55,865 nucleotides of DNA from Thermotogaceae bacterium (lineage in GTDB: Bacteria; Thermotogota; Thermotogae; Thermotogales; Thermotogaceae): positions 1-55,865 of the forward strand of contig JALWSA010000019.1 in NCBI GenBank assembly GCA_026993805.1, given 5' to 3'. The notes below the pieces were generated by a model, which was not told the origin of the DNA, made no database searches, and saw only the letters and a list, made by a program, of their open reading frames with translations. Each line of letters begins with the position of its first letter. Positions within the stretch are counted from its first letter, which is position 1. Positions 4,623 through 8,590 of the stretch are shown in pieces. Made by a program: the position numbers and the translations under genes.

Positions 4623-5369
4623 TTAATATGTAGTGAGATCTCCTCTGATCCTCACTGCCCTTTCGAAAAACTTGAAGACGAGAAGACCTGCCGCCAGATA
4701 AATGGCAGTTCCTATTAGTGCGAAAAGAACCGTCGCTCCTTCAGGACTTTCTCCAGACAGTATCTTTTTCATTATGTAAAAGTAAGGAGAAACTGGAATA
4801 ATCATTGCCTTAAAACCGCGCGCGTCCAAAAAGAGAAGACCGATTACAGCGAACTGTACGAGCTGCAAGAGCGCATTCGTTCTCTTGAACCGCAGAGTTA
4901 TTCCCGCGAGCATCATACCCATACCCATCGTCTGGATCATAGCCGCCACCAGATACAGGAAAAAGACCGGCGGAACTTTTATACTCACGCCTGCAAGCGA
5001 GAAGATCACGACCATCATTCCATAAAGAAGCGGGAGATTGAAAAGGATTGAAGAAAATTGATACGCCGCAAAAACCGCCAATGGCCCGTAGGGAGACAGA
5101 AACTCCTGCTCTATGATTCCCCTCTGCATCTCGTTCATTATGGTCCAGGAAAGATCTGTCAATGTGAAGAGCATCGTCATCCACATGAAATACCCTATAG
5201 CGGTGTCTCTAAGGGTTCCGGAAGCTGCGGATCCGCCAAAACTCTTAAAGCCAAGCACTATCAAAAGGAATATGATTATCATCACAACGATGCTCGAAAG
5301 AAAATTCAGGTAGTATCTTTTCATCTCGATGAAAATTCTGTAGACCATGCCAGAAACGAGCGCCATCAT
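4623..5369 (-). CDS. ABC-2 type exporter permease
   Basis: A 248-residue integral membrane protein with about six hydrophobic segments, starting around residue 20 (NFLSSIVVMIIIFLLIVLGF). The layout is that of an ABC-2 permease, with a LSWTIMNEMQRGIIEQEFLSP coupling-loop segment after the second helix. It starts 4 bases inside the end of the ATPase gene, so the two form one transporter. No substrate can be read from sequence; ABC-2 systems export drugs, lipids or polysaccharides. The gene ends facing the convergent TM1410 gene. Confidence 0.85.
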   Translation of the reverse strand: MMALVSGMVYRIFIEMKRYYLNFLSSIVVMIIIFLLIVLGFKSFGGSAASGTLRDTAIGYFMWMTMLFTLTDLSWTIMNEMQRGIIEQEFLSPYGPLAVFAAYQFSSILFNLPLLYGMMVVIFSLAGVSIKVPPVFFLYLVAAMIQTMGMGMMLAGITLRFKRTNALLQLVQFAVIGLLFLDARGFKAMIIPVSPYFYIMKKILSGESPEGATVLFALIGTAIYLAAGLLVFKFFERAVRIRGDLTTY

Positions 5370-6301
5370 GACCTCTCACCCCTCACGATCTTTATGAACA
5401 CTTCTTCGAAATCGATGTCCTCACTCTCTATGCTCTTTATTGGAACCCTTTCTTCCTTCAAAATTTCAAAGAGATCATAGATGCTACTCGAAGACTCAAA
5501 TTCAACATCCAAAGTGACCTTTTCCCCGTTCTCCGAAATCTTCGCAAAGCTCTTTAGCTTTTCAAGAAGAGATGGCGTCGGTTTTTTCTCGAGCACGATT
5601 TTGTACGCTCTCCTTCTGAACATCTCCTTTAAATTCTCGGTCTTGTCCATAGCCACAACTTTTCCCTTGTTTATGATCATCACCCTGTCAGAAACTGCTT
5701 CGACCAAATTCATATCGTGACTGGAAAGAAGAACCAGTTTCCCTTCAGACGCGATATCCCTTATTATCTTTCTCATCTCGCGGCTGCTCTCAACATCCAG
5801 CCCAAGTGTTGGCTCGTCGAGCAAAAGAACTGGAGTGTCCGGAAGGAGCGATATCGCCACGGCAAGCTTTTGCTGATAGCCCCTTGAAAGCTGTCCCGCG
5901 AGCTTTTTAACATGCTCTGAAAGACCGAACCTGTCTATGAGATTCCTTATACGGGATTTCAAAAACCTTCCCGAAAGACCTCTAATAGCCCCAAAATATT
6001 TCATGTTCTCGATCACAGTCATCCGCCAGTGTACATTTCTGTTCCCCTCCAAAACAGCGCTCATCATCCTCAAAGCTCTCTTTCTGTGCTTTAAAACATC
6101 TATTCCACCCACCTTTATCCTTCCTTCATCCGGAATAACAAGGCCCAATATAGACTTTATCGTGGTGCTCTTTCCCGCACCGTTTGGGCCAAGGAGCGCA
6201 AATACTTCACCTTCTTTGGCAGAAAAAGATATCCCTTTGACGGCCTCCACAACTCTTCCTTTGTCTCTGTATGTCTTTCTCAAACCTTCGACCAAGAGCA
6301 T
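5366..6301 (-). CDS. ABC exporter ATP-binding protein
   Basis: A 311-residue ABC ATPase. Walker A GPNGAGKST, signature LSRGYQQKLAVA (a degenerate LSxGQ with RGY), Walker B VLLLDEPTLGLD and an H-loop LLSSHDM are all present, so it should be catalytically competent. The C-terminal 80 residues form the extra domain common in exporters of the CcmA/NatA type. ATG at 6301 follows GGGGGTGAAAGG. It pairs with the overlapping permease. The bactofilin-like cassette ends only 21 nt upstream, so read-through from that cassette is possible. Confidence 0.9.
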   Translation of the reverse strand: MLLVEGLRKTYRDKGRVVEAVKGISFSAKEGEVFALLGPNGAGKSTTIKSILGLVIPDEGRIKVGGIDVLKHRKRALRMMSAVLEGNRNVHWRMTVIENMKYFGAIRGLSGRFLKSRIRNLIDRFGLSEHVKKLAGQLSRGYQQKLAVAISLLPDTPVLLLDEPTLGLDVESSREMRKIIRDIASEGKLVLLSSHDMNLVEAVSDRVMIINKGKVVAMDKTENLKEMFRRRAYKIVLEKKPTPSLLEKLKSFAKISENGEKVTLDVEFESSSSIYDLFEILKEERVPIKSIESEDIDFEEVFIKIVRGERS

Positions 6302-6322: not shown

Positions 6323-7105
6323 TCAAAATCTCTTAAAGATCGCTGTGGGGCTTACTATTCTTCCCTCCACCTCCCATTCATCCGCATTAACAGCTCCTGA
6401 TTTGATAATTCCTCCTTTATCGACCACTACGGCTTTGCAGTTCACAGCGCCAGACGTTATCCTCCCACTTCCTTCAACCTTGACACTTCTGCCCGCCTTA
6501 ATAGCACCCGCGCGCACGTTTCCTGAAACATGAAGATCTCTGCAACTAACGGCACCTGTGCGAAGATCTCCACTCACAATCACCTCTTTCTCAACTTCCA
6601 AACTGTCCACTTTTAAACTTCCTTCAACAACCACTCTCTTTGCCTTCAGTTTCACTCTTTCCATGTTGAAACTTTCATTTTCTTTCACCACGAATTCCTC
6701 GTATTCTCTGACTTCCTTTTCCTGGAGTGCTCTTTTGATTATCATGGGTTTAAAAGCTCTCAAAAGAGCGGAGAGCAAAGGAAAGTTGATTCTAACGAAG
6801 TCCCCCTCTATATACCCAAACTCTCCGGACGATTTCGAGGCTATAAGGACCATAGCCCCTTCAACGCTGCCGCTGCTCACCTTCAAAGTGCCCCCTATGC
6901 TCACAAAGTCTCCTTCTACATTCCCGGAAAACTCAACATCTGAAAATATGGCCACGACATCCCCTTCTACATTACCCATAATCCTTCCTTTGCCGTCTAT
7001 TATCACAACATCGTCTTCGTAGACTTCTGTTGATTCAAGATAAAATTCTTTAAAAACATCCTTTTTTACATCTTGAAAGCCTTCATCATGCTTCACGACC
7101 TTCAT
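6323..7105 (-). CDS. Bactofilin-like polymer-forming protein, second paralogue
   Basis: A 260-residue protein built of short beta-helix repeats (EGDVVAIFSDVEFSGNVEGDFVSIGG and similar), interrupted near residue 135 by a VREYEEFVVKENESFN hinge and followed by a second repeat block. This is the 'polymer-forming cytoskeletal' (bactofilin-like, YvlB-related) pattern. It is a paralogue of the gene just upstream (7102-7977), sharing hinge and repeat style but lacking that gene's N-terminal helical SHOCT-like part. The start overlaps the upstream stop by 4 bases. No signal peptide is seen. Inference: the two paralogues co-assemble as a cytoplasmic scaffold under DUF2089 control. Confidence 0.75.
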   Translation of the reverse strand: MKVVKHDEGFQDVKKDVFKEFYLESTEVYEDDVVIIDGKGRIMGNVEGDVVAIFSDVEFSGNVEGDFVSIGGTLKVSSGSVEGAMVLIASKSSGEFGYIEGDFVRINFPLLSALLRAFKPMIIKRALQEKEVREYEEFVVKENESFNMERVKLKAKRVVVEGSLKVDSLEVEKEVIVSGDLRTGAVSCRDLHVSGNVRAGAIKAGRSVKVEGSGRITSGAVNCKAVVVDKGGIIKSGAVNADEWEVEGRIVSPTAIFKRF

Positions 7106-7977
7106 GACTCCTCACCCCTTCTCAGGATCTCAACATCGCCCCGCACTTCTGAAATATCCGAAGACCTATTGACTACCACCTTTCCCTTTCCTCTCAAAAC
7201 ATCGCACCTGAGTTTGTCCGCGACCACTTTCCCGTTCACTTCAAGTTCATCCGCTTCTACCTTTGCGGCCCTTACCCTGCCATCTACCGTCATCTCGTCG
7301 GCCGAAATCCTAATAGCTTCGATCTCACCACTTTCTTCCACGGTTATCTCTTCTGCCTGGACATTCTTGGCCTTCATCTTTGCTTTCACACGAAGGCTTT
7401 CAACATAGATGTTTTCGTTGAAGGTTTTGTCACTTTCGACCACAAGATCCTCGTATTTTCTCAGCTTCTTACCCGGATGTATGTTCACGCCGATGCCGCG
7501 AAGGATGGGAGATACTATATTCAATATTCCAGTAGCAAGAAAGTTCGTTATCCTGACCGTATCCCCGCCGACTTCAGGAAAGTTCCCGGCAGCTTTTGCG
7601 CCTATCAGAACCAAATCTCCATCGACATAGCCACCATCGAACTTGACTTTCCCACCCAAGAAGACCAGATCGCCGTCCACTCTTCCAGAAAATTCCGTGT
7701 CACATGACATCAAAACCACATCGTCTTCCACTTCTCCCCTGATAACAACCTTCTGACCCGACAAGACGATCTCACCACTCACCTTTTCGCCTTCATCTAT
7801 CACAAAAACCCCTTTCGGCTCTTCCTTCTCTTCTCCCTTGCCCTTCTCTTTCCTCTCCTCTTTCTCTTCCTTCTTGCCTTCTCTCTCTTTTAGGGCCCTT
7901 ATAAGCATCTCTGCTTCCTCAGGCGATATATCTCCACTCGCAACGGCGTCGAGAATTCTCTTCATATCTTCCATCAT
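7102..7977 (-). CDS. SHOCT-like plus bactofilin-like protein, first paralogue
   Basis: A 291-residue protein. Residues 1-33 form a small helical hairpin (ILDAVASGDISPEEAEMLI), a SHOCT/YvlB-type N-terminal motif. Residues 34-55 are a highly charged K/E linker. From about residue 60, beta-helix repeats follow (GEVEDDVVLMS, GRVDGDLVFLGGKV, GYVDGDLVLIGAKA), then a LRKYEDLVVESDKTFN hinge and a second repeat block. The start ATG at 7977 has GGAGGG 8 nt upstream. The DUF2089 protein upstream ends in the same kind of short helical motif (VRRGKMSVEEALKLL), suggesting the two proteins recognise the same partner or each other (inference). Confidence 0.78.
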   Translation of the reverse strand: MMEDMKRILDAVASGDISPEEAEMLIRALKEREGKKEEKEERKEKGKGEEKEEPKGVFVIDEGEKVSGEIVLSGQKVVIRGEVEDDVVLMSCDTEFSGRVDGDLVFLGGKVKFDGGYVDGDLVLIGAKAAGNFPEVGGDTVRITNFLATGILNIVSPILRGIGVNIHPGKKLRKYEDLVVESDKTFNENIYVESLRVKAKMKAKNVQAEEITVEESGEIEAIRISADEMTVDGRVRAAKVEADELEVNGKVVADKLRCDVLRGKGKVVVNRSSDISEVRGDVEILRRGEES

Positions 7978-7992
7978 GGTCTATCCCTCCTC

Positions 7993-8049
7993 TCAAATTC
8001 TCATGAAACTCTCCGATATGACCCACAAAAGAAACACTAGTCTTGCCAT
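7993..8049 (-). CDS. Candidate 18-residue hydrophobic microprotein
   Basis: An open frame reading MARLVFLLWVISESFMRI lies between the DUF2089 gene and the first bactofilin-like gene. It is preceded by GGGGAGGTGATTTTG, one of the best ribosome sites in the region with ideal spacing, and ends 15 nt before the next gene's ATG. The product would be a single short membrane-seeking helix (RLVFLLWVI). The ribosome site is the main support. Without it this would be spacer; an alternative is a short coupling ORF that regulates translation of the next gene. Confidence 0.5.
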   Translation of the reverse strand: MARLVFLLWVISESFMRI

Positions 8050-8054
8050 CAAAA

Positions 8055-8417
8055 TCACCTCCCCTTTTTGAGGAGCTTCAGAGCCTCTTCAACACTCATC
8101 TTTCCCCTTCTCACGAGCTCGTAAACATCCTGCTCATCGACCTCTTCCTGCTCCTTAGACAAGGGCTCAAGCCCAAGCTTTTCTATGATCTTTTCGAGCT
8201 TTCCCCTGAGTGCGAAGTAGCCCTGACCGGTGTATCGTGCGAGCTCCTTCAGATTTCCCCGCGCGCGGAAAAAGAGAATCACGAACTCCATATCTTCATC
8301 CGAGAGAAAATCAAAGACACTCGGTTTGAATTTTCCTCTCACCACAACATCGTCTCTCTCGCATTTAAGCTCAGTAACAATCATTTCTTTCCCACAAACC
8401 GGACATCTTGGAAGCAT
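8055..8417 (-). CDS. DUF2089 family regulator
   Basis: A 120-residue protein starting at ATG 8417-8415, preceded by GGAGGTGGAAAG; a farther upstream ATG at 8450 is in frame but has no ribosome site and lies inside the promoter. The N-terminus MLPRCPVCGKEMIVTELKC supplies a zinc-ribbon CxxC plus a further cysteine. The middle (FDFLSDEDMEFVILFFRARGNLKELARYTG...) is the DUF2089 helix-turn-helix region. The C-terminal 20 residues form a SHOCT-like hairpin (VRRGKMSVEEALKLLKKGR). The family is usually found next to bactofilin/YvlB-like genes and is thought to be regulatory. Here its own promoter carries three operator-like repeats, consistent with autoregulation. Confidence 0.85.
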   Translation of the reverse strand: MLPRCPVCGKEMIVTELKCERDDVVVRGKFKPSVFDFLSDEDMEFVILFFRARGNLKELARYTGQGYFALRGKLEKIIEKLGLEPLSKEQEEVDEQDVYELVRRGKMSVEEALKLLKKGR

Positions 8418-8430
8418 CTTTCCACCTCCG

Positions 8431-8484
8431 CAAAATATTTTATACATCACCCAAATATTTTGTCAAGATATCCAAATATTTTGT
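8431..8484 (-). promoter_or_regulatory. Promoter with three phased operator-like repeats upstream of DUF2089
   Basis: On the plus strand the core AAATATTTT occurs at 8433-8441, 8453-8461 and 8474-8482, so the spacing is 20 and 21 bp, two helical turns, placing all three on one DNA face. The two distal copies share the longer form CCAAATATTTTGT (8451-8463, 8472-8484). On the minus strand a promoter overlaps them: TTGACA at 8466-8461, a 16-nt spacer and TATAAA at 8444-8439. The -35 abuts the middle repeat and the -10 lies in the proximal one. A protein bound to these repeats would block RNA polymerase; DUF2089 itself is the obvious candidate (inference). Confidence 0.7.
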
Positions 8485-8524
8485 GATGAGTCACAAACCA
8501 GGGGAGAGAGCAGTAAAAAAGAAA

Positions 8525-8543
8525 GGGCACCCGCTTGGTGCCC
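8525..8543 (-). terminator. Rho-independent terminator after the TPR gene
   Basis: Inverted repeat GGGCACC-(5 nt)-GGTGCCC followed on the minus strand by TTTCTTTTTTA. It lies about 50 nt downstream of the TPR protein stop and just upstream of the DUF2089 promoter, separating the two transcription units. Confidence 0.8.
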
Positions 8544-8590
8544 CGATTAAATCTTTCGCGAAGTAGCCTGCGCGACCTTCAAGAGATGTG

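Follow-up and report, generated by a model that had tools for sequence, protein, structure and literature searches.

The DUF2089-Toastrack four-gene context has been predicted to be a functional analogue of the PSP and Lia systems, with SHOCT-like domains proposed to bring proteins to the inner face of the membrane and DUF2089/Toastrack operons described as lia-like (PMC11237479); in the literature that we read, this is the only work to discuss DUF2089 operons. A BawC-type DUF2089 protein also belongs to the cluster of the leaderless bacteriocin bawcin (PMC10707071). Within the literature searched (subscription papers lay outside it) we found no experimental study of DUF2089 and no mention of its having an operator, a regulon or a bactofilin-like partner; the 18-residue open reading frame (ORF) described below was likewise unreported there. 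Here we describe a DUF2089 operon on a 55,865-nucleotide stretch of DNA from a Thermotogaceae bacterium (JALWSA010000019.1, hereafter the window), in which three phased copies of a short repeat span the promoter, and we propose that its DUF2089 protein probably, with appreciable room for doubt, represses its own operon, a Lia/PSP-like one for envelope stress and efflux.

The window makes up contig C19 in a draft genome of 1.69 Mb. This genome belongs to family f1, which in our Thermotogota set consists of it and 13 others. Families bear anonymous labels (f1, f2, f3 and so on), f1 being Thermotogaceae-like and f3 a sister family, presumably Fervidobacteriaceae; f2 we take to be the Pseudothermotoga group. 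DUF2089 loci were gathered from 98 of the 103 Thermotogota genomes searched. The nearest named contigs are from Thermotogaceae metagenome-assembled genomes, with DUF2089 identities of 92% (WGAO01000117) and 69% (JAGHBG010000122), and the plasmid and phage sequences searched gave no match.

A phased repeat at the DUF2089 promoter

The core AAATATTTT occurs three times ahead of the DUF2089 gene with start-to-start distances of 20 and 21 bp (Table 1). An earlier note on this DNA had claimed three copies at this spacing across the only promoter of the cassette, and both points hold. The window contains five matches to the core where 0.93 are expected, a number reached by none of 100 dinucleotide shuffles, and the promoter is the single promoter-like site on the minus strand between 4400 and 8700. 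With TAAAAT as its -10 it has 11 of 12 consensus matches and an 18-nt spacer; with TATAAA, the -10 named in the note, the spacer is 16 nt. An inverted repeat, TTTGTGA-CTCA-TCACAAA, occupies 8480-8497, immediately 5′ of operator copy 1 as read on the minus strand; in L043, the closest relative, we did not see it.

Since the predicted DUF2089 starts in relatives are unreliable, falling too far downstream at some f2, f3 and f8 loci and too far upstream at L045, the f1 and f3 promoters were anchored on the -35; L045, whose promoter was located by sequence, and L080 were treated apart from this alignment. Within f1, copies abutting the -35 and overlapping the -10 are found at almost all bactofilin-type DUF2089 loci, and the upstream copy is present and more variable. 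The f3 DUF2089 promoters share this layout. Counted from the start of the -35, their A/T cores, which end in TTTG or TTTGG, lie at about -16, +5 and +26, and the counterpart of copy 1 at about -16 is the least conserved in relatives. A rule that requires all three sites above a high score is passed by only one of 17 f3 loci. Because the copies are conserved by place rather than by exact sequence, we used a test of phase: 53 of 60 matches of an f1-trained matrix on the held-out f3 promoters fall in the three windows where copies are expected, 22% of the positions in all. For a simple motif over 180 bp of 30 promoters, 169 of 172 matches lie on a 21-bp ladder compared to 18% expected if uniform, a descriptive figure without a p-value, as overlapping matches were counted. 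At the f3 loci with a long 5′ leader (genera g12 and g13) the third copy keeps to the -10 and not to the Shine-Dalgarno sequence, and is therefore part of the promoter.

The site is also specific. Eleven of the 14 f1 genomes contain a pair of the form AAATATTT-N11-14-AAATATTT, in every case at the DUF2089 promoter; G087 has one additional site. Exact matches to TTGACAAAATATTTGG are confined to DUF2089 promoters among the same 14 genomes. A looser pattern, TTTTKG-N4-8-TTGACAWWWWWTTTKG, occurs in 19 of the 45 genomes of the order, at DUF2089 in 18 and before a GGDEF gene in one; reversed, it has no match in those 45. The GGDEF-type protein (L179, at G082:C6:6080) is from a single f3 genome, and may be a chance match or one more target. 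Conservation of the repeat upstream of orthologues, a check set beforehand, thus turns out to be strong in both f1 and f3, and we regard the repeat, as read from these alignments, as a conserved and specific operator at the regulator's own promoter.

The f3 genomes suggest that the operator extends beyond the operon. A still looser paired pattern, which in the f1 genomes marks the DUF2089 promoter only, there also lies before the gene of a major facilitator superfamily (MFS) transporter, a pump of drug-exporter type, and before a gene for a 72-residue membrane protein, compared to a background in f3 of 0.06 site pairs per 10 kb. Among 11 unlinked MFS loci of genera g10 and g11, the copy abutting the -35 was recognised by eye in all 11 and the -10 copy in ten, with six passing a strict rule; the gene for the 72-residue protein has sites in nine of nine copies by eye and in seven by the strict rule. 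MFS homologues are located inside the DUF2089 operon in g3, g4, f8 and f3 genera g12 and g13. Promoter-embedded sites were not found at MFS genes inside the operon or at the readable f2 MFS loci, nor at any of six readable loci of f2 homologues of the 72-residue protein, which resembles small membrane proteins downstream of DUF2089 in f5 and f7. The regulon looks genuine, since the f3 genes carry sites and the f2 homologues do not, and a gene that sits inside the operon in some genomes and bears the operator once moved out is about the best evidence for a regulon that sequence can give. Sequence comparison thus establishes the operator, shows it to be phased and conserved, and places it almost exclusively on genes of this functional set; the earlier claim of a self-regulated operon gains support.

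Other DUF2089 types may have operators of their own. In f10 (L129, L131, L133, L135, L136, L138 and L140) the DUF2089 promoter is overlapped by a conserved element of another kind, which is an inverted repeat around ACCACTTGACTTTTTTAAAGTTAAGTGGTATT.

The regulator, its operon and its partner

The DUF2089 proteins at operator-type promoters form a single clade with a support of 100/100 and a long branch. Their recognition helix reads GYF[A/T]LRG, compared to ISYPT[A/V] in the rest of the phylum; the tallied GYF copies all belong to f1 or f3, and no tallied ISYPT-type locus has a bactofilin-like partner. One genome, G089, has both types: its locus L035 combines the GYF helix with a bactofilin-like partner and the operator, and L034 combines ISYPT with Toastrack and lacks the operator. 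On the strength of the tally and of this contrast we tie operator, recognition helix and partner together, the tie being a correlation along one tree plus one contrast within a genome, and we infer that DUF2089 is the protein that binds the operator copies. L034 is an extra DUF2089-Toastrack cassette of an f1 genome, on a long tree branch, and was possibly acquired from outside. Elsewhere, a second, SYPT-type DUF2089 paralogue with a different neighbourhood lies between c10 (a conserved membrane protein of about 170-200 residues) and c4 (a small SHOCT protein) in f2 (L047, L049, L056, L058, L060, L062) and f10 (L130, L132, L134, L137, L139, L141), and second DUF2089 copies at G028:C60:104435-104560 and G029:C5:4986-5111 are broken by a stop codon and apparently decaying.

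That the window protein is a zinc-ribbon DUF2089 protein, as first proposed, is confirmed by Pfam, which finds the zinc ribbon (PF22747, 47.5 bits for a cut-off of 27.6) and the helix-turn-helix (HTH; PF09862, 60.6 bits for 33.4). Its start is most likely the ATG at 8417, preceded by GGAGGTGG; the in-frame GTG at 8450 is disfavoured as it lies inside the promoter. Searched by sequence against the PDB, the protein had no match. The AlphaFold2 model (mean predicted local distance difference test, pLDDT, 71.5) has a hairpin, the HTH and two C-terminal helices, the last at a pLDDT of about 60. A likeness of the HTH to NarL/LuxR-type domains was suggested by an earlier profile search (PMC2686095), and the nearest folds to the model found with Foldseek, weakly, are of this type and include VraR and LiaR.

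Table 1. Features of the DUF2089 operon and its promoter region, in window coordinates
Feature	Position	Strand	Remarks
Intrinsic-terminator-like stem	8524..8544	-	belongs to the preceding TPR gene; insulates the DUF2089 operon
Operator copy 1	8474..8482	-	5′ of the -35; AAATATTTT as read on the + strand
Operator copy 2	8453..8461	-	within the -35/-10 spacer, abutting TTGACA; conserved over f1 and f3
Operator copy 3	8433..8441	-	overlaps the -10 and the transcription start region
Promoter	8437..8466	-	TTGACA 8461-8466; TAAAAT 8437-8442 or TATAAA 8439-8444; conserved in f1/f3
DUF2089 protein, 120 residues	8055..8417	-	zinc ribbon, HTH (recognition helix GYFALRGKL) and SHOCT-like helices at the C-terminus
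18-codon ORF MARLVFLLWVISESFMRI	7993..8049	-	full Shine-Dalgarno; consensus FLLW....SFMRI in three genera
SHOCT and bactofilin-like beta-solenoid protein, 291 residues	7102..7977	-	SHOCT at 7879-7971
Second bactofilin-like protein, 260 residues	6323..7105	-	without SHOCT; Pfam Bactofilin 33.6 bits (cut-off 27.9); alignable to the first
ABC transporter ATPase	5366..6301	-	Pfam ABC_tran; 22-nt gap, same operon; downstream of the cassette at other loci too
ABC-2 permease	4623..5369	-	Pfam ABC2_membrane; final operon gene; 4-nt overlap with the ATPase ORF

The transcription unit does not end at 7102, where the cassette had been placed to end: as judged from short or negative gaps on one strand without a further promoter-like site, it continues through the second bactofilin-like gene and the ABC-2 ATPase and permease genes to 4623.

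In most of the phylum the genes after DUF2089 encode Toastrack (DUF4097, PF13349) with a C-terminal SHOCT, LiaF-TM proteins and a small SHOCT protein. Toastrack is present in 69 of the 103 genomes; among the f1 and f3 genomes listed only G089 has a match above the cut-off (14 matchless genomes stand outside that list), and the window's genome has no match to PF13349. The partner in f1 and f3 is instead an N-terminal SHOCT followed by a bactofilin-like solenoid, 27 of which, when aligned, gave 21 matches to SHOCT, 18 to Bactofilin and none to DUF4097. The comparison shows that these two families have replaced the usual membrane partner, Toastrack, by a bactofilin-like one. Descent of the bactofilin-like protein from Toastrack found no support: profiles of the two partner families align in the SHOCT stretch only. 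In f2, a gene for a membrane protein of about 580-595 residues with a Gly/Ser-rich tail (c11) follows DUF2089-Toastrack throughout the family (L046, L048, L050-L055, L057, L059, L061).

The bactofilin assignment in the note is weak. The first window protein scores 31.5 bits for the SHOCT-like family (cut-off 27) and 29.1 for Bactofilin (PF04519, cut-off 27.9), and the second also exceeds the Bactofilin cut-off; most relatives score below it, and we speak of bactofilin-like proteins because the family match is marginal. The model of the 291-residue protein begins with two helices and goes on with a solenoid, a further helix and another solenoid, at a pLDDT of 85-92 over most of the solenoids. 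A fold search with this model returned generic beta-helices, with no bactofilin structure among the PDB folds, and a sequence search of the PDB with the protein alone gave no match.

Between the two SHOCT-bearing genes, the 18-codon ORF has counterparts of exactly 18 codons in three genera (MARLVFLLWVISESFMRI in g1, MIRFWFLLWIFSESFMRI in g5 and MDRYYFLLWMICCSFMRI in g2), each with the Shine-Dalgarno sequence GGAGGTGA, whose TGA is the DUF2089 stop, 5 nt before the ATG. Compared to g2, the conserved serine is retained across a codon change from AGT to TCT, and the second leucine across one from TTG to CTC. The evidence that the ORF is translated is good but not final, coming from three sequences. 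Genera g3 and g4 and family f3 lack it, the SHOCT protein following directly after DUF2089, and in f2, f5 and f7 membrane proteins of 68-76 residues take its place. Of the membrane microprotein proposed earlier, the conserved ORF remains; its place in the membrane is a guess, as the hydrophobic core is only about 8 residues long. We regard the c78 ORF of g4 and the antisense ORFs c31 as spurious.

Mechanism and rival explanations

In the reading that we favour, DUF2089 would occupy three sites of the near-palindromic form CAAA(W)TTTTG that share one face of the helix, the near-palindrome suiting one dimer per copy and the 21-bp ladder several dimers side by side. Bound there, it would cover the region upstream of the -35, the spacer and the -10 and start, excluding RNA polymerase. 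Sites over a promoter repress as a rule, and we favour repression because the spacer and -10 that these sites cover belong to a near-consensus promoter. Envelope damage would derepress the operon and so supply the regulator and the exporter together with the small hydrophobic peptide and the beta-helix scaffold. The likely link joins two SHOCT modules, the tail of DUF2089 and the head of its bactofilin-like partner, through which a membrane-associated scaffold would take up or release the regulator; the earlier note had remarked on SHOCT-like motifs at opposite ends of these two proteins, and Pfam places them there, with 23.5 bits in DUF2089, under the 27-bit cut-off, and 31.5 in the partner. 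The unlinked MFS pump and the 72-residue membrane protein of the Fervidobacteriaceae-like relatives would be under the control of the same regulator. Our confidence falls from DUF2089 as the binder to repression, then to envelope stress as the trigger, a proposal of the note that fits the published DUF2089/Toastrack context (PMC11237479), and finally to a signalling contact between SHOCT domains.

Several observations count against this reading. Some f3 promoters have degenerate copies and fail a strict rule. As the window's own genome has no second target, its regulon may be this operon alone. The SHOCT-like match of DUF2089 (PF22746, 23.5 bits, E 4e-5) is under the 27-bit cut-off, the Foldseek matches of its HTH all have E above 0.1, and SHOCT-SHOCT contact is a conjecture. 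Activation through the upstream copy 1 is also possible, and an activator acting on its own operon would accord with that copy and with the general habit of NarL/LuxR-type HTH proteins, the group of the fold matches, whose members are often activators. With the two best-conserved copies lying over the spacer and -10, and with promoter hexamers already near consensus, we consider activation unlikely.

A regulator encoded elsewhere might bind the repeats and so control the DUF2089, MFS and membrane-protein genes, leaving DUF2089, whose DNA binding is only predicted, to partner RNA polymerase or another protein. This seems to us quite unlikely, given that DUF2089 is the first gene and has an HTH and that the operator tracks the type of DUF2089 recognition helix, even between two paralogues of one genome. 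The full model of the note, a self-sensing cytoskeletal module with mutual binding of bactofilin polymer, microprotein and regulator, draws on the shared SHOCT-like modules, the marginal bactofilin matches and the conserved ORF in between; it is improbable, as the bactofilin match is near the cut-off, most relatives fall below it and the PDB fold matches include no bactofilin, and as most genera that retain operator and SHOCT protein lack the microprotein. Least of all do we expect the repeats to work without a dedicated regulator, as A/T tracts whose phasing curves the DNA or as promoter-strengthening elements of the UP kind. The copies are indeed A/T rich and two helical turns apart, with one upstream of the -35, but a general strength element would be expected on many strong promoters, whereas the site is nearly confined to one promoter per f1 genome and in f3 recurs on functionally linked genes, and its TTTG edge is conserved beyond mere A/T content.

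Autorepression by DUF2089 could be extended, in a version that we hold to be doubtful, to a one-component membrane-stress switch in which an HTH regulator and a beta-helix scaffold share SHOCT, assembly at the membrane titrates the repressor, the 18-residue peptide is a third component, and scaffold, recognition helix and operator were exchanged together in the f1 and f3 lineage. A defined operator and target genes make DUF2089 function directly testable and give an unstudied family a concrete DNA target. The targets (an ABC-2 or MFS exporter and small membrane proteins) hint at what the system protects against, and a SHOCT shared by two unalignable beta-helix bodies suggests a general coupling of a cytoplasmic regulator to a membrane scaffold.

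Comparison with known systems

As far as we found, the association of DUF2089, SHOCT and Toastrack and its envelope-stress reading were already published as a prediction, and the operator, the regulon and the partner swap are new. Like the described context, the window operon has first a DUF2089 gene, for a zinc ribbon, an HTH and a SHOCT-like tail that here scores below the cut-off, and has further on a gene for a SHOCT-bearing beta-helix protein; across most of the phylum, to which the context extends, LiaF-TM-type and small membrane proteins and transporters lie nearby. The window operon differs in that the f1 and f3 partner is bactofilin-like with an N-terminal SHOCT, Toastrack being absent there bar G089; bactofilins are not mentioned in PMC11237479.

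BawC is likewise a small DUF2089 protein next to an ABC transporter; it differs in its length of 98 residues and in its setting, a Bacillus bacteriocin cluster with HlyD and Yip1 proteins. Bactofilins (PF04519) resemble both window proteins, which score just over the family cut-off, and a bactofilin, PDB 6RIA, is the sole PDB sequence match (E 0.098); a bactofilin has a single short core with unstructured tails, compared to a SHOCT head and two solenoids with a helix between them in the 291-residue protein. As for the Lia operon (LiaIHGFSR) of Bacillota, no LiaF-TM was found by Pfam among the proteins of the window operon, to which that search was confined. Such proteins are present in the cassettes of f3 and in other families, as in the Lia operon, and in one Toastrack partner there is a weak match to the LiaG model, under the cut-off. 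The two systems differ in their control, which would here rest with a one-component HTH regulator in place of a two-component system.

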